Source: Anatilimnocola aggregata (GTDB lineage: Bacteria > Planctomycetota > Planctomycetia > Pirellulales > Pirellulaceae). From it: DNA of 64,000 bases. Location of the stretch: the NCBI RefSeq assembly GCF_007747655.1, contig NZ_CP036274.1, forward strand, positions 1,550,001 through 1,614,000, written 5' to 3'. This document shows positions 34,592 to 42,630 of this stretch, one piece after another. Every line of letters starts with the position of its first letter. Within the stretch, counting starts at the first letter, position 1. A program made the translations under genes and the position numbers. The notes under the pieces were generated by a model that was not told where the DNA came from, did no database searches, and saw only the letters and a list, made by a program, of their open reading frames with translations.

Positions 34592-35350
34592 CTATTTCGT
34601 GGAGTTCGATTCGGCGGTGCAGAGCGGGCAACCGGCCGTCGGACGATCGCCCCACGAAACATACGAGAGACCACGAGCCAGCGACACGACGCCCGTGAGG
34701 ACGAGGCACCAGGCGGCAAAGCCGAACAACCAACGGCGCGAGCCCAGACTCAGCAGTTGGCCGGTGGTTCCTGCCAACACCAGCAGCGGCATGGTGCCAA
34801 GACCAAACACGAGCATGGTCGCGCCCCCCAGCAGTACCTGGTGCGTGCTAGCCGCCAAGGTGAGCATGCCGTAGAGCAAGCCACAGGGAAGAAAGCCGGT
34901 GCAGACACCCGCGATCAAGGCACCGGTATGACCTTGCCCGCGAAAGAACGGCGCGAAGAGCAAACCGCAACTGCCGCTGTGATGGAGATTTACGGGAGTC
35001 AATTGTTTCATGCCGAACAGGCGTTGAAGCAGTTGTCGGAGCTTCGTTGCGAGGCCCGTCTCTTGCAGCCCTTTAACGATGAAGACGACTCCCGCGATGA
35101 TCGCGAACATGGCCGGGACGTTGATCAGCGAGGCCGTGTGACGTGCGGTCCATTCGCCGCTGAAACCGGCCATCAGTCCGAGGAAAGAGTAACTCAGAAG
35201 TCGCCCCACGGAGTAGAGCAACTGTCGGACGAAGGCCACGGACCAGCTCTTGGCGCCGGTGCTAATCCCAATCGCCAGGGGACCACACATTCCCAGGCAA
35301 TGAGCAGTTCCGAGCACTCCGGCCACGAAGACCAGCGGCAATTCGATCAC
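34592..35350 (-). CDS. UreH/TauE-SafE-like membrane protein of the cbb3 cluster
   Basis: Membrane protein of 252 residues with about six helices. The N-terminal GVLGTAHCLGMCGPLAIGIS and the later GVCTGFLPCGLLYGML each hold a Cys in a conserved small-residue context, typical of the UreH-like/DsbD-related group found in oxidase clusters, and suggestive of copper handling. It overlaps the end of the copper ATPase gene by 4 bases (35347-35350), so translation is coupled. Role in oxidase metal supply is known for related proteins but not shown here. Confidence 0.78.
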   Translation of the reverse strand: MIELPLVFVAGVLGTAHCLGMCGPLAIGISTGAKSWSVAFVRQLLYSVGRLLSYSFLGLMAGFSGEWTARHTASLINVPAMFAIIAGVVFIVKGLQETGLATKLRQLLQRLFGMKQLTPVNLHHSGSCGLLFAPFFRGQGHTGALIAGVCTGFLPCGLLYGMLTLAASTHQVLLGGATMLVFGLGTMPLLVLAGTTGQLLSLGSRRWLFGFAAWCLVLTGVVSLARGLSYVSWGDRPTAGCPLCTAESNSTK

Positions 35351-37500
35351 GGGGACACCTCCGTGGCGATCGATAGAGGAGGATGTTCTTCATCCTCGAC
35401 AGGTCGTGGTGCTTCGAACCGCGCGAGTGCCAATGAGTTTGTGACCACAAACAGGCCGCTCAGGCCCATCGCAATTGCGGCGATGACCGGATGGAGCCAA
35501 CCGGCGGCGGCAAGTCCGAGGCCGATGACGTTGTAGCCCAGTGCCCAGACGAGATTCCAACGGAGTGCGTGGCGCGTAGTAATAGCCAAACGACGTAGAA
35601 ACAGGAGGGAACTCAAATCGTTACGCAACAGACAAATCGGAGCGGAGTGGCGGGCGATATCGGTTCCGCCGGCCAGCGAAATGCCGACATCGGCAGTCGC
35701 CAAGGCGGGGGCGTCATTGATGCCGTCGCCAACCATCGCCACGGGGCCGTTGCTATGAGAGAGCGACTTGATGGCCAGCAGCTTTGCTTCCGGCAGCAGT
35801 TCCGCTCGGTAGCTCAGGCCCAGGCTGGTCGCCAGATGCCTGGCGCGCGAGTCACGATCGCCAGTGAGCATCAACAGATTCAGCTGTTCGGCGGCCAGTT
35901 GTTGCAGCGTGTTCTTGACGCCGGAGCGCAACTGCTCGGAGAACAAGAACTGTGCTCGCACCCGGCCACCCCAGGCCACGAGCGTTTCCGCAGTTGCATC
36001 GTCAGCGGGCAAACTCAGTTCGCGGCAATCTTGGTGGCACGCTTCAAGCCAGCGGCGATTGCCGAGAAGGACATCGGTACCCAACTCGGGCGAGTAACCA
36101 ACAACACCTCGTCCTGGCAAGTGCCGGGAGTTGGTGACACCACTGAAACTTGCTTGATGAGAGTGCTCCTCTCGACACCAGTCAGCCAGAGATTGCGCCA
36201 AAGGATGGGTCGAGTCGATGACCAGATCGTTCACATGAGCGGAGACCTGAGAGAGCGAGACGCCGGGAGCGAGGTTGTAAGCGGTGAGTTGAGGCTGGCC
36301 CGTCGTGAGCGTGCCGGTCTTGTCGAAGCAGATCGTCTTCACTGCTGCGAACTGCGTGAGCGCATCTCCGCTGCGGATCAGAATTCCTGCCTGCGCGGCA
36401 CGAGCAATCGCAGCCCACAAGGCCATGGGAGTGGCCAGACCCAAGCTGCAGGGGCAGGCAATGACCAGCACAGCCACAGCCGCGAGCAGGCCCTGTTCGA
36501 ATTGGCCGCGGCTGACATGAATCGCCAACGTACCCAGGGCCAACATCAGCACAACCGGAAGAAACCAGCGGCTGATGCGTTCGGCAAGGCGCTCATAGTG
36601 CGAGCGGGAGGCCGTACCTTGTTTGACGGCTGCGATCATCTTGGCGATCGTTCCTTCGCCCGCAGCTGACGTGGCTGCGATGACCAGCGGACCATCCAGC
36701 ACCAGCGTGCCGCTGTAGACGAGTGCTTCGCCGAACTTGTGCGCGGGAGCGCTCTCACCAGTGACTGCCTGCTCGTCGACAAGGGCTTCCCCTTGTTGAA
36801 CGATTCCATCGGCGACGATTCGCTCGCCGGGCAAGACACGAAACCATTCGCCGGGCTGCAGATCGCTGGCCGGCACAATAGTCTCGACGTTGTTCATCCA
36901 CTTGCGCACCGTATCGGGCAACAGTTGCGACATCGCACGCAGGGCAGCGGTCGTTTGCAGCTTGCCGTTGGCTTCGAGCCATTTGCCGAGTGTGACGCCG
37001 AGCAGAATCGCGCAGGCAACTTCGCAGTAGATATGCCCGCCGAACATCACCGAGTAAACAGAGTAGCCCATCGCGGCGGCGACTCCCACGATCAGCAGCA
37101 CGCTCATCGAACTACGTCCCGCCAGGAGTTCGCGCCGCGCGTCTTTCACAATCGGGGGACCGAGCAGCAACAGCACGGGCAACGAGAACAGCAGCGAGGC
37201 CGAGCGAAACAGGCCATACCAGGCCGAGGCGAGTTCATTTGTGGCCGATGTCTCGGACCACAACAGCAGCGTGCAAACCATCACGTTCATCGAGAAGAAG
37301 ACGGACAACCCCAGCTTGGTCATCGTCCAGCGAGATTGCGCTTCGTCACCGCTGCTGGCAGCGATCGAAGCAGCAAACCGACAACCGTAACAGCAGTATT
37401 GATGTCCTGCTTCATCGGTGGCCGCGCCGTGCGTGATGGGCAGTTCGCAAAAATCGCACTGTGCGCGATCGTTGGCAACTTGGCCCGCGATAGATGCCAT
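35347..37500 (-). CDS. ccoI: Copper-transporting P-type ATPase of the CcoI/FixI type
   Basis: P1B-type ATPase of about 717 residues needed to supply copper to the cbb3 oxidase. An N-terminal Cys motif set (CDFCELP, CCYGC) replaces a classic HMA domain, as in FixI proteins. Membrane motif ACPCSLGLATP, phosphorylation site DKTGTLT and hinge GDGINDAPALATADVGIS are all present. The start is set at ATG 37500: codons further upstream lie in another frame over the preceding 58-residue gene. No Shine-Dalgarno sequence is obvious, consistent with translational coupling. Confidence 0.9.
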   Translation of the reverse strand: MASIAGQVANDRAQCDFCELPITHGAATDEAGHQYCCYGCRFAASIAASSGDEAQSRWTMTKLGLSVFFSMNVMVCTLLLWSETSATNELASAWYGLFRSASLLFSLPVLLLLGPPIVKDARRELLAGRSSMSVLLIVGVAAAMGYSVYSVMFGGHIYCEVACAILLGVTLGKWLEANGKLQTTAALRAMSQLLPDTVRKWMNNVETIVPASDLQPGEWFRVLPGERIVADGIVQQGEALVDEQAVTGESAPAHKFGEALVYSGTLVLDGPLVIAATSAAGEGTIAKMIAAVKQGTASRSHYERLAERISRWFLPVVLMLALGTLAIHVSRGQFEQGLLAAVAVLVIACPCSLGLATPMALWAAIARAAQAGILIRSGDALTQFAAVKTICFDKTGTLTTGQPQLTAYNLAPGVSLSQVSAHVNDLVIDSTHPLAQSLADWCREEHSHQASFSGVTNSRHLPGRGVVGYSPELGTDVLLGNRRWLEACHQDCRELSLPADDATAETLVAWGGRVRAQFLFSEQLRSGVKNTLQQLAAEQLNLLMLTGDRDSRARHLATSLGLSYRAELLPEAKLLAIKSLSHSNGPVAMVGDGINDAPALATADVGISLAGGTDIARHSAPICLLRNDLSSLLFLRRLAITTRHALRWNLVWALGYNVIGLGLAAAGWLHPVIAAIAMGLSGLFVVTNSLALARFEAPRPVEDEEHPPLSIATEVSP

Positions 37501-37511
37501 GAAGGGAGCGC

Positions 37512-37688
37512 TCAAAACCTTTGGAACAGTTCTACTCGCAAGGAAGGAAATACATATCGAATGGTGTAAACAATCGCGAAGATCCAAAAGCCGATCCAGA
37601 TTACGCGCACGTACCAGGGAATGGCGTTTCCCACGTAATCGTGAAATCGTTGATCGCTCTCGGGAGTTGTGGGGTCAGGCTGCGTCAT
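37512..37688 (-). CDS. Small single-helix protein resembling the CcoP N-terminal anchor
   Basis: A 58-residue protein with start ATG 37688 and stop TGA 37512-37514. A polar N-terminus precedes FHDYVGNAIPWYVRVIWIGF and a hydrophobic helix ending VYTIRYVFPS. The pattern, a charged stretch, NxxPxW and then one helix, is like the N-terminal anchor of CcoP (which has DGI-EYDNPLPRWW), but no cytochrome domain follows. It sits between CcoO-side genes and the copper ATPase, with 20 and 11 bases to its neighbours. Confidence 0.75.
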   Translation of the reverse strand: MTQPDPTTPESDQRFHDYVGNAIPWYVRVIWIGFWIFAIVYTIRYVFPSLRVELFQRF

Positions 37689-37708
37689 GGTTCACTTGGT
37701 TCGGGGAG

Positions 37709-38017
37709 TTACTTTTGTTGGTCGAGCAAGGCTTCGCGGTCGAGCATTTGCTGTTTGGGCTTTTCGATATCGCGGAACATACCGCGACCGGCTGCCCACA
37801 GCAGCAGGCAAAAAAAGCCCAGGCTGGCGAGCAAATAATTCATGATGGGTGCGACGGCAAACGCGCCGCCGGACTCACCGCGGGCGACGTTGATCAACTC
37901 GATGAACTTGCCAATGAAGCCGTAGCCGCTGGGAATGAGGATCAGGACCGCGAGCAGAATCGTCACGCGAAACTGCCACTCGCTGGCCTCTGGTTGTGAG
38001 GTTGATTTCGCGTTCAT
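37709..38017 (-). CDS. Small two-helix membrane protein of the cbb3 operon
   Basis: Protein of 102 residues with hydrophobic helices at about 18-38 and 58-77. No family is recognised; it could be an oxidase accessory protein. Its start ATGA overlaps the stop of CcoO by 4 bases (38014-38017), so translation is coupled. The charged C-terminus (EKPKQQMLDREALLDQQK) probably lies in the cytoplasm. Confidence 0.75.
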   Translation of the reverse strand: MNAKSTSQPEASEWQFRVTILLAVLILIPSGYGFIGKFIELINVARGESGGAFAVAPIMNYLLASLGFFCLLLWAAGRGMFRDIEKPKQQMLDREALLDQQK

Positions 38018-38739
38018 TCGGAACTCCGCAGATGATCGATTTCTTCATAGTAGGGATAGCTATCGAGCCAAGAGCCAAGCCATTGCACATAGGCGATGAG
38101 CGCCAGGCCGCGCCGATTCGGCTGATCCGGTGCGCCTTCGAACAGCCACGGATAGTCCGGCATCGGCGAATCGGTCGAGACTAAGGAGGGCTTGAAAAAG
38201 TGGACTGCGTGCCAGTCGTTACTGCGCCGGCCACCTTCGCGGCTCAGGTCGGGGCCGACGCGGCGAGTGCCAAACATCACGGGCCGCTGCAGTTCGTTTT
38301 GATACTCTTCGGTCTTGGCAACGGGTCCGAAGCGGAGCGACTCATTGGATACAGGACGCACAAACTGACTATGGCAATGCCAGCAACCTTCGCCCACATA
38401 AACCTGACGACCTAAACGGAGCGCTTCGGCGGAAGTGAGGACCACTTGTTCTTCGAGCTTGGCGTTGTCGGCTATCAGTGCTGCGCGCACATCAGCGGTG
38501 GCATCGGCGGGGATCTCTTTGGGTTCCGGCAGTTCGCCGAACGCCTTAAGGAACGCTTCCGGATAGCGATCCTGCAGATTGCGAAACTGACGAACGAGTC
38601 GCGGGTTGACTACTTGTTCGGCGGTCTTTTCGGGCAGGTCTTTGTACATCATCATCGGCAAGGCACCGTTGCTGACGAACGCGAAGACAAAGAAGCCAAT
38701 TCCCGCAATGAACAGAATGCCTGTTTTGCTTTCGAACAT
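38014..38739 (-). CDS. ccoO: cbb3-type cytochrome c oxidase subunit II (CcoO), monoheme
   Basis: Membrane-anchored cytochrome c of 241 residues that passes electrons to the CcoN core. One N-terminal helix (residues 6-28), a single heme motif C119-W-H-C122-H123 in GEGCWHCHSQFVRPV, then the family segments RVGPDLSREGGRRSNDWH and DSPMPDYPWLF with the Met ligand. Length fits the family. The next gene, CcoN, is 57 bases upstream on the same strand. Confidence 0.93.
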   Translation of the reverse strand: MFESKTGILFIAGIGFFVFAFVSNGALPMMMYKDLPEKTAEQVVNPRLVRQFRNLQDRYPEAFLKAFGELPEPKEIPADATADVRAALIADNAKLEEQVVLTSAEALRLGRQVYVGEGCWHCHSQFVRPVSNESLRFGPVAKTEEYQNELQRPVMFGTRRVGPDLSREGGRRSNDWHAVHFFKPSLVSTDSPMPDYPWLFEGAPDQPNRRGLALIAYVQWLGSWLDSYPYYEEIDHLRSSE

Positions 38740-38795
38740 CGACTAGAGTCCACCCAAGGAGTGCATTGATCCGGGAACTGGATTGCTTCGGAAGC

Positions 38796-40286
38796 TCAGC
38801 TACCGAGCACGACGACGGAAGTGCTGTCGCTGCTGGTCGGTTGCGTGACTTCGCCGCGAACAGTCATGGTCAGGTTGTAGAGAAAACAGAGCAGCCCGCC
38901 GAACATCATGAAGCCCGCAAAGGCACGCACGATCCAGAAGGGCTGCGAGCCGTTGGTCGACACTTCCCAAGGTTGCATCGAGGCCCAGTAATAACCTTGG
39001 AACACGCCAGCCAACGTAAGGTCCAAAAACATGATGAAGAGCCCCACGGCCGAGAGCCAGTAGTGCCATTCGATCAATGTGCGGCTGTACCACTCGCGCT
39101 TGAGCAGGAGCGGAATCAGGTAAGTCATGATGCCGAAGAGCCAGAGCGTAAACACGCCAAACATCACCAGGTGAGCATGCCCCACGACCCAGTCGGTGAA
39201 GTGAATCAACTTCTGAAAGGTCAGCGTGACTTGCAACGCGCATTGAAAGCAGGTGATGAAGTAAAACACCATGCCGGTATAGAAGTAGCGAATCGGCAGG
39301 TTGTCGATGAAGGCACGACCTCGGCCCCACAAGGTGCCGAAGAAGTTGATCACGACCGTCGCCACAACCAGTTCGACCGCAATCGTCGAGATCACTGCTC
39401 CATACTGCAAGAACATCGGAATCGGCGTGTAGAGGAAATGGTGAATGCCTTGCAACGGATAGAAGAAGGCGAGCCCCCAGAAACCCACCAGCGACAGACC
39501 GTGGCTCCAGATCGGCTTCTTCAGCATGATCGGGACGAAGTAGTACATCAGGCCCCAACCCAACGGCGTCACGAACAGCCCGACGAGATCGTGAATGAAT
39601 AGCCCGCCAATCGCGCCGGCGCTTGTTCCTGCGACTGTGTACTCGGGCAGGAGATTGCCCATCGCCACGGTGAGTGGTGTCCAGACAAACATCGCCATGA
39701 AGTACCACAAGCTGACATACATGGGCCCCTTGGTGCGGGCAATCGGCATCATGAAGTTGTACGCAACGAGCAGCAGACCGACGAGCGAAAGAGGATCGAT
39801 CCAGAAGGGAGTTTCGCCCCATTCCAAACCTTGGGCGCCGAGACCCATCGGCAGGTGATACGTCTTGGCAAGGTACATGACCCAAGGTTGATCTTGAAAC
39901 GTTGGGCCCAGGATGATGCCCGCCGCCGTGCTCAAGACGACGAATTGCCAGGCAAAGAAGATGAAGTACGACAGTTTGCGGCTGGCGACCGGGTGAAAGG
40001 TAAGTCGCGGAATGGCCCAGTGAATCGTCCCCAGGAACGCGTTCGCCAAAAAGCCATAGGCGATGGCATTCGTGTGGAGCATGCGCCAGCGACCGGGCGA
40101 AAAGAGCTCGATGCCGCTAAGCGGATTCGCCTTGATCAACTGGAACGCCATCAGGATGCCAGCGAGCATCGAGATCGTCAGGAATGACAGCGCCATGTAG
40201 TAGTACCACATGATCAGTCTGTCATCGACAAGTTCTTCGTGCCGGGGCGCTGATTCAGTCGGTGCAGCCAGTGCAGTCATGTTCAC
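38796..40286 (-). CDS. ccoN: cbb3-type cytochrome c oxidase subunit I (CcoN)
   Basis: Catalytic heme-copper subunit of 496 residues with 12 or so helices, reducing O2 to water and pumping protons at low oxygen. All expected metal ligands are seen: His71 (low-spin heme), His232, His282 and His283 (CuB), and His370 and His372 (hemes b3 and b). Tyr276 is at the position of the cross-linked tyrosine, six residues before the CuB His pair. Its start overlaps the preceding gene's stop (ATGA, 40283-40286). Confidence 0.95.
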   Translation of the reverse strand: MNMTALAAPTESAPRHEELVDDRLIMWYYYMALSFLTISMLAGILMAFQLIKANPLSGIELFSPGRWRMLHTNAIAYGFLANAFLGTIHWAIPRLTFHPVASRKLSYFIFFAWQFVVLSTAAGIILGPTFQDQPWVMYLAKTYHLPMGLGAQGLEWGETPFWIDPLSLVGLLLVAYNFMMPIARTKGPMYVSLWYFMAMFVWTPLTVAMGNLLPEYTVAGTSAGAIGGLFIHDLVGLFVTPLGWGLMYYFVPIMLKKPIWSHGLSLVGFWGLAFFYPLQGIHHFLYTPIPMFLQYGAVISTIAVELVVATVVINFFGTLWGRGRAFIDNLPIRYFYTGMVFYFITCFQCALQVTLTFQKLIHFTDWVVGHAHLVMFGVFTLWLFGIMTYLIPLLLKREWYSRTLIEWHYWLSAVGLFIMFLDLTLAGVFQGYYWASMQPWEVSTNGSQPFWIVRAFAGFMMFGGLLCFLYNLTMTVRGEVTQPTSSDSTSVVVLGS

Positions 40287-40921
40287 TTCGTCCGAGCTTG
40301 ATATGGTTCAAATTTGCCGAGCGGATACACCAGCGCCATCGTCCAGCCAAAGACCAGGTGGGTGAGCACTGCGACCCAAATCGGCAGATGTTCCGGGTTC
40401 ACGATCCAGTTGCCGCCGAACAGGGCTGGCTGCAACCAGGAGAGAATCAGATAGAAGTTGATGAGCCAGATCGCCAGCGACAAAACCGTGGCAATTGCGA
40501 GTCGCTTGGCCAGCCCACCCCCATTCGCAAAGCGGGTAAGGATGATTTGAAAGGGGATGCCGAGAAACATCCCAGTGGCGATGTACAGACAGCAACCGAA
40601 AATGAGAATCAAGCCGTCAGGCAGCGGCTCGAGTGCTCGTTCGCCTAGCCCAAACGTGAGATAAATTTTAATGAGTTGCAGCGGATGCTGATCCGGCGCG
40701 CCGAAGAGAACCGAGCCAACCACGTTGAAGGCCAGGCTGACGAGCGCCGCGATCATTCCCAGAAAGAAGCCGGCGGTTGCGTAGTAGGTTAAGTAGAAGC
40801 CGCGGGACCACTCGCGCGATGCCGGTGTTTCGTTTTCCACGGCTTCGGCTTCTAACTGAGCAACGCGGCCGCGTAACTCGGTTAGCTCTTGCAAGATGGT
40901 CTGAAGATTCTGTTCGGTCAT
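40283..40921 (-). CDS. Membrane protein of the cbb3 operon with N-terminal coiled coil
   Basis: Protein of 212 residues, family not recognised. Residues about 4-30 form a short coiled coil (LQTILQELTELRGRVAQLEAEA); the rest has four hydrophobic helices. The gene ends in a 4-base overlap with ccoN and follows the diheme lipoprotein by 61 bases. A role in oxidase assembly or anchoring is likely from position only. Confidence 0.72.
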   Translation of the reverse strand: MTEQNLQTILQELTELRGRVAQLEAEAVENETPASREWSRGFYLTYYATAGFFLGMIAALVSLAFNVVGSVLFGAPDQHPLQLIKIYLTFGLGERALEPLPDGLILIFGCCLYIATGMFLGIPFQIILTRFANGGGLAKRLAIATVLSLAIWLINFYLILSWLQPALFGGNWIVNPEHLPIWVAVLTHLVFGWTMALVYPLGKFEPYQARTK

Positions 40922-40982
40922 GGCGAGTCGTTGTTACGGAAGGGATGGCTCTGAAAGGACACTTCGAGCGAAGGTGAAACTG

Positions 40983-42110
40983 CTATTCGCTGGGGGCCGC
41001 GGCGGGCTCCACTGGTTGAGCCTTCAACTGCTCGCGAATCTCCGCGTCGATCACATCCATGGGCAAGGGCTGACCATTCGCCACACTGTTCACGAAGTGC
41101 GAAAGGTGCCAGATGGTATCGCTGCGTTGGGTCTCGGTTTCGCCTTTGTTCGCATCGGGCTGAGCGAAGGCGGGCATCGGAGTGCCATTGATACCAGAGT
41201 AGATTCGGCGATAGATATCGATCGGACGACCGCCACCGTGGAGCGTGCCCGTGGTGAGGTCCGCTGCACGCGCAACGCGGCCCCAATCATCTTTGCCGAT
41301 GTTTCCCGTCTTGATGCCGCGCCCATCATGTCCGTGGCACTTGTAGCAGTTGAGTTGCACAAAGGCCTTCGCGCCAGCGGCAATTGTCTCCTCGCTGGGA
41401 GTTATTTCTCGTGTCAGCGGGCGTACGATCTGTTGCTCTGCTTCGTCCCAAGATAGGGCAATTCCCTGAGCCTGTTCGGCGACGATGGCTGGAACGACAT
41501 CGTCTTCTTCGGTGAGATCAGCCTGCGCGACCTGTCCCAGCCGATATTCAAGTTCGCCGCGTGAACTGAGCAGCATGACGTAGTCAATCACGGCTTCAAG
41601 ATCGTCCTCCGTCATCCATGGGAACGAAGGCATGCTCGTCCCTTTCGCTCCACGACGAAGGACACGCTGCAGATCAGTTCGCCGAGGCTTTACACCACGC
41701 GGAGTGCTTGTGAATTTGAACTTACCTAAGCGATAGTCGCGCGGGGGAGGATCGAGGTACTTCGCCGCGGGACCTTGGCCGTCGCCGGTCACGCCGTGAC
41801 AACCGGCACACTGATTGAGATAAACGGCCTGACCGTGTTGCAGGTGTCCCCGATCTTCGCGCTCGATTAGCTTCGGCTGCGGAGCATCCGCAGGCTGTTC
41901 CTCAGCAGGCGCGACCGCGAGAAACTTCGGAAAGCGAGCCGTGCCAAAGTAGTCTTCCAGACTGGCTTGAATCTGCTGTTGATGCTTCGCAGGAAGCTGC
42001 TGCAGATCAACGCGCGACGTGTATTTTAACTCGACTGGTGCACCACAGCCGGACATGAGCATCGTCGCCACCGCAACGCAGGTCGCAATCCTACTACTTC
42101 CCAATAACAT
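40983..42110 (-). CDS. Diheme c-type cytochrome lipoprotein
   Basis: Exported lipoprotein of 375 residues (lipobox LMSGC, Cys22) with two cytochrome c domains: CAGCH at 101-105 with Met160 in GTSMPSF as the likely axial ligand, and CYKCH at 255-259 with the Met in GTPMPAF. It belongs with the oxidase genes downstream and would carry electrons to CcoO/CcoN, taking the place usually held by CcoP. The start ATG 42110 is followed directly by the signal. Confidence 0.85.
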   Translation of the reverse strand: MLLGSSRIATCVAVATMLMSGCGAPVELKYTSRVDLQQLPAKHQQQIQASLEDYFGTARFPKFLAVAPAEEQPADAPQPKLIEREDRGHLQHGQAVYLNQCAGCHGVTGDGQGPAAKYLDPPPRDYRLGKFKFTSTPRGVKPRRTDLQRVLRRGAKGTSMPSFPWMTEDDLEAVIDYVMLLSSRGELEYRLGQVAQADLTEEDDVVPAIVAEQAQGIALSWDEAEQQIVRPLTREITPSEETIAAGAKAFVQLNCYKCHGHDGRGIKTGNIGKDDWGRVARAADLTTGTLHGGGRPIDIYRRIYSGINGTPMPAFAQPDANKGETETQRSDTIWHLSHFVNSVANGQPLPMDVIDAEIREQLKAQPVEPAAAPSE

Positions 42111-42180: not shown

Positions 42181-42630
42181 TTACTTCGACTCGCGCATTT
42201 GCTTATGGCATTGCACGCAACTCACCGTGAGTTGATTGAAACCCAGAGTGACCCCTTCGATGTTATCTTTGTTGGCTTGGCGAATGATTTCGTCGAGCGA
42301 CATGTCGAAGGCCTGCAACTGGCCGCGATAACCTGGATTTCGGCCACGCATAAACGCCTCGATTTTGCCTAGGCTTCGCATGGTCTGCGCGCTCTGAGCA
42401 ATCTTGTCGCAGTCTCCCGAGGCAATTCCCTCGAGGATGTGCCTGGAGAAATCGAGCTTCTTCTTCATCCAGAAGCTGACCGGTTCACCTTGGTGCATTT
42501 CAGTAGTTGCACTGGGCTTTGTTGCTTCCTTGTCGGAAGCTGGCGTCTGAGCAAGCGTCAATCCATAGGCCGCACAGATTGAAACAAAACCAACTACGAA
42601 GTAAATCATTCGTCCGATCGTGCTCTTCAT
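42181..42630 (-). CDS. Periplasmic cytochrome c, single C-terminal CxxCH (cytochrome c'-like)
   Basis: Exported protein of about 149 residues. Start ATG 42630 has GAGG at the right distance, and begins a signal peptide (MIYFVVGFVSICAAYGLTLA); upstream codons to 42792 are not protein-like. The heme motif CVQCH lies only nine residues from the C-terminus, preceded by four helices, as in cytochrome c' and c556 families. These bind NO or O2 or act in electron transfer. First gene of the oxidase operon. Confidence 0.8.
   Translation of the reverse strand: MKSTIGRMIYFVVGFVSICAAYGLTLAQTPASDKEATKPSATTEMHQGEPVSFWMKKKLDFSRHILEGIASGDCDKIAQSAQTMRSLGKIEAFMRGRNPGYRGQLQAFDMSLDEIIRQANKDNIEGVTLGFNQLTVSCVQCHKQMRESK

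Follow-up and report, generated by a model that had tools for sequence, protein, structure and literature searches.

A stretch of 64,000 nucleotides from the planctomycete Anatilimnocola aggregata (contig NZ_CP036274.1, positions 1,550,001 to 1,614,000; hereafter the window) carries on its minus strand an operon for a cbb3-type oxidase. Its genes encode, in order, a diheme lipoprotein, a 212-residue membrane protein, CcoN, CcoO, a 102-residue protein, a 58-residue protein, a CcoI-like ATPase, and a DsbD_2 protein (Table 1). CcoP is a standard subunit of cbb3 oxidases. The first-pass annotation, made from the sequence alone, had reported CcoN and CcoO with all expected ligands, no CcoP, and, between the subunit genes and the copper ATPase, a 58-residue protein resembling only the CcoP membrane anchor. 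CcoN and CcoO are indeed clear from their PF00115 and FixO matches, the CuB His pair, the cross-link Tyr, and the CxxCH motif are present, and the 58-residue gene lies where it was reported. The finding is confirmed and extends further than first stated, in that it concerns a subclass of cbb3-type oxidases. At a probability of about 0.73, the operon represents a distinct subclass of cbb3-type (C-family) O2 reductases that has no heme-bearing CcoP, and in which the job of CcoP is divided between a heme-free anchor and a recruited diheme cytochrome.

The window operon shares with canonical CcoNO(Q)P (FixNO(Q)P) systems the CuB His pair and cross-link Tyr of CcoN, a CcoO with a single heme c, and a nearby ccoI and ccoS-like gene. 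It differs in having a separate 58-residue anchor and a diheme lipoprotein with no heme-bearing CcoP, in the replacement of the CcoN residues Y/H/E by H/G/Q, and in the additional 212-residue membrane protein.

Table 1. Genes of the oxidase operon and its surroundings, in window coordinates
Feature	Position	Strand	Remarks
Putative heme-free CcoP-type anchor, 58 residues (mini-CcoP)	37512-37688	-	H-x-Y-x-G-N-x-I-P-W-Y motif, one transmembrane helix, short tail
102-residue protein, CcoS/FixS-like C-terminal half	37709-38017	-	two transmembrane stretches (by eye); Pfam E 0.012, below cut-off; gene start overlaps ccoO stop
CcoO (FixO)	38014-38739	-	FixO E 9e-34, over cut-off; one CxxCH
CcoN, H/G/Q type	38796-40286	-	PF00115 E 7e-66; H262, G268, Q348 in place of Y/H/E
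212-residue membrane protein	40283-40921	-	predicted model: N-terminal helix plus four long helices; no family match
Diheme cytochrome c lipoprotein	40983-42110	-	lipobox ...LMSGC; two CxxCH
CcoI-like copper P-type ATPase	35347-37500	-	start most likely the ATG at 37500, beyond the stop of the 58-residue gene
DsbD_2 membrane protein adjoining ccoI	34592-35350	-	
Cytochrome c'-like protein	42181-42630	-	one CxxCH; label from the first-pass annotation, without family match; start most likely the ATG at 42630

Absence of CcoP and conservation of the operon

The A. aggregata genome (9.0 Mb, single contig, 99.98% complete) contains exactly one match to the window CcoN, and four further COX1-family places with different scores. 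No match to FixP_N (PF14715), the Pfam family of the CcoP anchor, is found at E≤1e-3 in the entire genome, and in a search relaxed to E≤10 the best match (E 0.48) lies approximately 4.5 Mb from the operon. The genome therefore holds no canonical CcoP by this search, taken as a FixP_N anchor and heme-c domain(s) in one chain, which agrees with the earlier claim. A CcoP that is encoded elsewhere and escapes recognition by FixP_N might be looked for among the other multiheme proteins of the genome, one of which has four CxxCH motifs. Such a remote subunit is very improbable given the empty search of a nearly complete assembly, the conserved small anchor already held by the operon, and the lack of FixP_N over the cut-off in all 58 genomes of the order that carry the window CcoN type (see below). 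Two 754-residue COX1-family frames elsewhere in the genome have identical scores (contig C1:1137118-1138452 and C1:5333088-5334422) and are perhaps duplicated nitric oxide (NO) reductases.

Two types of CcoN, sorted manually from the match listing, occur in a sample of 196 Pirellulales genomes: the window type in 58 and a second type, 27–32% identical to it, in 32. The open frames of the second type, at 764–865 residues, are long enough for a CcoN–CcoO fusion. FixP_N over the cut-off is present in all 32 second-type genomes and in none of the 58. Four additional genomes of the order have a CcoN match, three of them weak and the fourth a decayed relic (G083). The relic (L097, C23:31200-45600) is a decayed operon of the window, or split, type with pieces of CcoN; its genome belongs to the same family and has no FixP_N match above the cut-off. 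Those second-type CcoP chains that were read have one CxxCH instead of two (19 chains among L031-L060; L091, L093, L096).

A survey of planctomycete cbb3 operons, as proposed in the first-pass annotation, recovers the same gene order. In 30 loci fetched from the 58 window-type genomes, the genes for the diheme protein, the 212-residue protein, CcoN, CcoO, the 102-residue protein, the 58-residue protein, and CcoI follow in a single order on one strand (30/30). DsbD2 is present in 29, the stretch for the last (L088) stopping within CcoI, and CcoO has exactly one CxxCH in every case. A set of 80 named loci (the best 80 of 290, named from record titles and nearly all metagenome bins) includes Lacipirellula limnantheis I41 (L173) and Bythopirellula polymerisocia Pla144 (L157). 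Where the flank suffices, these loci encode the diheme protein (68/68), the 212-residue protein (68/68), CcoO (67/67), the 102-residue protein (67/67), the 58-residue anchor (66/67), and CcoI (55/55). Gene order is identical in 45 of the 49 named loci that are complete on both sides; the other four may reflect overlapping open frames. The 58-residue protein is thus conserved, and neither of the genomic findings that would have refuted the first-pass reading, a full CcoP elsewhere or a small protein that is not conserved, came up.

The codon pattern of the 58-residue gene (37 codons, 30 loci) indicates that it is under purifying selection: the proportion of nonsynonymous differences is below that of synonymous ones (pN<pS) in 435/435 pairs, and codon position three varies most. 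A chance reading frame is ruled out, since the gene is both conserved and under such selection.

The 58-residue protein and the CcoP membrane anchor

Sequence comparison favors reading the 58-residue protein as an anchor of the CcoP type without heme. The likeness reported earlier is real, although weak when the protein is taken alone (FixP_N E 0.34, 11.1 bits, cut-off 24.9), and is strengthened by profiles and intermediates. FixP_N is the Pfam family most frequently matched by a set of 25 diverse anchors, and a stand-alone anchor from Phyllobacterium matches it with E 0.0019. A profile of the 30 orthologues aligned to the FixP_N domains of 19 Pirellulales CcoP proteins scores 21.8, with a probability of 29% only; 132 control windows of the same length, drawn from other operon proteins and 107 of them transmembrane-like, all score lower (best 17.9). 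A wider comparison, of diverse anchors with FixP_N domains, yields a probability of 71% and E 3.8e-5, and pairs H-x-Y-x-G...N-x-I-P of the anchor with H-x-Y-D-G...N-P-L-P of FixP_N in the same register.

Sequences that link the two families weigh most in the homology of the anchor to FixP_N. Two genomes, G563 and G311, each have a stand-alone open reading frame (ORF) that lacks heme motifs (61 and 81 codons, respectively); these ORFs score 30.6 and 29.2 bits against FixP_N, over the cut-off. Both also match the anchor model A5 (1.1e-5, 1.4e-4) though they are not among its rows. Each shares its strand with a split-type CcoN and lies 5–7 kb downstream of it, and their neighbors are a tri-heme CcoO, DsbD2, CcoI, and a CcoS-like ORF. 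Searching 392 genomes of the phylum with A5, without a positional hint, returned 60 matches in 59 genomes. Of these, 51 have a same-strand CcoN of the split type within 10 kb; 23 of the 51 are rows of A5 and so near by construction, and among the other 37 matches 28 are near. The remaining matches comprise five in genomes with split-type CcoN on another contig and four outside such genomes. Considering CcoN places of at least 228 bits, with lower scorers and two canonical ones above that value omitted, 55 of 62 phylum genomes with split-type CcoN have an A5 match.

The anchor and the FixP_N region of CcoP share H-x-Y-x-G and N-x-[ILM]-P, followed by one transmembrane helix with a conserved Tyr. 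They differ in that the anchor stands alone, with no cytochrome domain, and in that the segment presumed to hold the entry Glu is shortened or replaced. By its likeness to CcoP, the motif side is read as cytoplasmic. An identity as CcoQ or CcoS is rejected: Pfam gives FixP_N alone, and FixS fits the 102-residue neighbor.

Diheme cytochrome, CcoN, and the proposed enzyme

All 30 diheme proteins have two CxxCH motifs, and their lipobox Gly-Cys is nearly invariant. The nearest solved chain is Kustc0458 of Kuenenia (PDB entry 6h5l_B), with a sequence E of 2.7e-51 and, for the predicted model, a Foldseek E of 4.6e-13 and a TM score by target of 0.77. No CcoP chain matches better than 4.4e-11; these chains fall amid other c-type cytochromes and are absent from the best 50 Foldseek rows. 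With a score of 46.7 bits against the CcoP model TIGR00782 (cut-off 179.95) and Kustc0458 as its nearest relative, the diheme protein is rejected as an orthologue of the CcoP head. Kustc0458 is a partner of an HAO-like protein, whereas the window cytochrome is a lipoprotein whose gene lies in an oxidase operon.

Elsewhere in the phylum, CcoO and the diheme protein form one ORF with three CxxCH motifs (L208-L211, L214, L215, L216, L219, L249). A separate anchor accompanies the fusion in L208-L211, L216, L248 (from the genome of L214), and L249, and was not found beside the fusions of L215 and L219. CcoN, CcoO, and the diheme protein are joined in one ORF in L212 and L213, with no anchor found. 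Because relatives fuse a diheme protein of its family to CcoO, the lipoprotein is the likely electron input of the oxidase. The affinity to Kustc0458 and the CcoO–diheme fusions together suggest that CcoO is most likely fed by a recruited diheme protein rather than by CcoP's own head. The earlier proposal that CcoP function has been divided consequently stands as regards a heme-free anchor and a likely diheme input, but not as regards the origin of the latter, which belongs to the Kustc0458-like family and is not a freed CcoP head. A model for CcoO–cytochrome c fusions, NF011054 (PRK14486), resembles the tri-heme CcoO of the relatives; it differs from the window, where CcoO (91.8 bits, cut-off 447) and the diheme protein (36.4 bits) are separate, and is silent on the anchor.

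Two further observations concern this cytochrome family. In L217 and L218, a protein with seven CxxCH motifs that matches the diheme model adjoins CcoN. A. aggregata itself encodes a 415-residue paralogue, likewise a diheme lipoprotein (L245:5055-6302, plus strand; genome C1:8560554-8561801), upstream of another oxidase cluster. That cluster comprises a 268-residue frame, a 603-residue COX1-family frame, and frames identified by inspection as CtaA, CtaB, and CoxC, so its oxidase is probably A-family.

The CcoN profile can be aligned to CcoN chains of known structure. All 87 CcoN sequences compared retain the cross-link Tyr and the CuB His pair. In 79 of these, defined by the lack of a linked CcoP (some of them with no anchor found nearby), an alignment count gives H and G in helix 7 and Q in helix 9 in 79/79. 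The eight CcoP-bearing sequences have Y and H in helix 7 and E in helix 9 (8/8), a pattern followed by three aligned PDB chains and, in helix 7, by L091 and L093. The window CcoN lacks the canonical Y/H/E set and scores 171 bits against TIGR00780 (ccoN), with a cut-off of 583. We take the Y/H/E positions to be part of the single (K-type) proton channel of C-family enzymes, and the CcoP glutamate six residues before the conserved Pro to be the start of the C-family proton route. The corresponding position is Tyr in the window anchor and in many others. The two stand-alone anchors that pass FixP_N (G563, G311) keep Glu at that spacing, so loss of the anchor Glu is not strictly tied to the change in CcoN.

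NO reductases are without a normal proton channel, and the replacement of the presumed channel residues in all 79 sequences could thus point to an NO reductase or another enzyme derived from heme-copper oxidases. This is scarcely probable, as the same 79 preserve the cross-link Tyr along with the CuB His pair and the operon contains a copper ATPase. Moreover, five of the six PDB matches to the CcoN profile are CcoN chains at 9.6e-51 or better, and the NO reductase 4xyd ranks last at 1.6e-12. An NO reductase identity was rejected on these grounds, and reduction of O2 rather than NO is favored because of the cross-link Tyr (79/79) and the ATPase.

In the enzyme proposed here, which would reduce O2 with high affinity, the mini-CcoP would sit next to CcoN in place of the membrane helix of CcoP and would close or stabilize the complex on the cytoplasmic face. 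The diheme protein, of another family and lipid-anchored on the outer side, would accept electrons from the periplasmic pool and pass them to the CcoO heme, and from there to heme b and the heme b3-CuB site. Copper supply and assembly would fall to CcoI and the CcoS-like 102-residue protein. Proton uptake may differ as well. A Vibrio cholerae CcoP reduced to its two transmembrane helices is reported to suffice for assembly (Ahn et al. 2015, cited in PMC9109917); it would be a man-made counterpart of the mini-CcoP, from which it differs in being engineered and in having two helices.

Several observations weigh against this division of CcoP's job. Beyond the low score of the window protein alone and the 29% of the first profile comparison, the set of 25 diverse anchors yields just six with a FixP_N match at E≤1 (best 0.0014), the Sinorhizobium meliloti anchor is without any family match, and no chain was returned when the anchor profile was searched against PDB sequences. 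Seven of the 62 split-type CcoN genomes lack an A5 match, two of them being full fusions, and one named locus (L163) has no anchor when searched with two models. One genome of the phylum sample (G557, contigs C6 and C2) has a split-type CcoN as well as a FixP_N protein in a 262-codon frame, so the two are not mutually exclusive everywhere and the exclusion is confined to the order sample. The diheme protein, which is more distant from CcoP than from the HAO-associated Kustc0458 and has a paralogue beside a different oxidase in the same genome, could be a general carrier.

The low score of the window protein alone, the six matches among 25 anchors, and the empty PDB search would suit a protein that only resembles the CcoP helix, an assembly factor or accessory subunit of the CcoQ, CcoM, or CcoH kind, with the enzyme consisting of CcoNO and a diffusing carrier; small single-helix cbb3 partners are known (CcoQ; CcoM, reported at 36 residues). 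We consider this unlikely in view of the same-register likeness to FixP_N through intermediates over the cut-off, the consistent lack of FixP_N over the cut-off alongside the split type in the order sample, and the 102-residue protein, which probably takes the CcoS role.

Other operon proteins, relatives, and origin

Two conserved members of the operon, the 102-residue and 212-residue proteins (37709-38017 and 40283-40921), were absent from the first-pass account. The former probably fills the CcoS role, judging from its sequence. The latter has no family or clear fold match by sequence and fold comparison (best Z 4.9), which does not imply a new fold; it is a candidate for a new subunit or assembly factor. 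The cytochrome c'-like gene had been placed with the diheme gene at the start of the operon. Both lie upstream, but the former falls outside the conserved unit: its matches are upstream on the same strand in only 4 of the 30 fetched loci, the window included, and on the opposite strand in 2. It was rejected as a part of the operon.

The survey covered Planctomycetota genomes and plasmid records. S. meliloti pSymA and a Phyllobacterium zundukense plasmid encode a CcoN-like protein (33–35% identical to that of the window), a tri-heme CcoO with the diheme part in one ORF (554 and 561 residues, respectively), a separate anchor (74 and 69 residues), a CcoS-like ORF, TauE/SafE, and a P-type ATPase. 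Matches to the S. meliloti anchor occur in 39 plasmid records, 34 of them from Sinorhizobium, 4 from Rhizobium, and 1 from Phyllobacterium; tblastn of the 58-residue protein on plasmids gives one match, with E 3. Among the 20 plasmid matches listed, in an incomplete gene table, the anchor is a "hypothetical protein" or is without a feature or annotation. Annotation can miss the small subunit, and such operons therefore appear to lack one.

Older reviews of cbb3 diversity may mention CcoP-less operons. A literature search, with most subscription papers outside its reach, returned nothing that describes the arrangement, the anchor gene, the fusions, or the residue pattern. The nearest account concerns Scalindua, in which ccoN, ccoO, and ccoP are reported under successive locus tags, without a canonical ccoNOQP operon or a clear ccoQ (PMC13253579).

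A CcoN tree of 54 rows was rooted on two presumed NorB sequences, one annotated and one identified by norQ/norD-like neighbors. CcoP-bearing rows form a single clade (100/100) nested within the others. The supposition that a once-whole CcoP was later split finds no support here; the rooted tree leans weakly the opposite way. A "split first, fused later" order is only a lean and not a result, because of the very long NorB stem, a long-branch warning from the program, and weak basal forks (90/81, 86/56). That the split type is a separate, possibly older C-family subclass with a different proton route, and the textbook cbb3 oxidase a derived branch that fused anchor and cytochrome, is a tentative idea that we rather doubt.

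The split arrangement is a natural test of the roles of CcoP in holding the complex, feeding electrons, and admitting protons. Lineages in which anchor and cytochrome are apart also have other residues at three CcoN positions of the presumed channel, and the related form on S. meliloti pSymA offers a genetically workable host.

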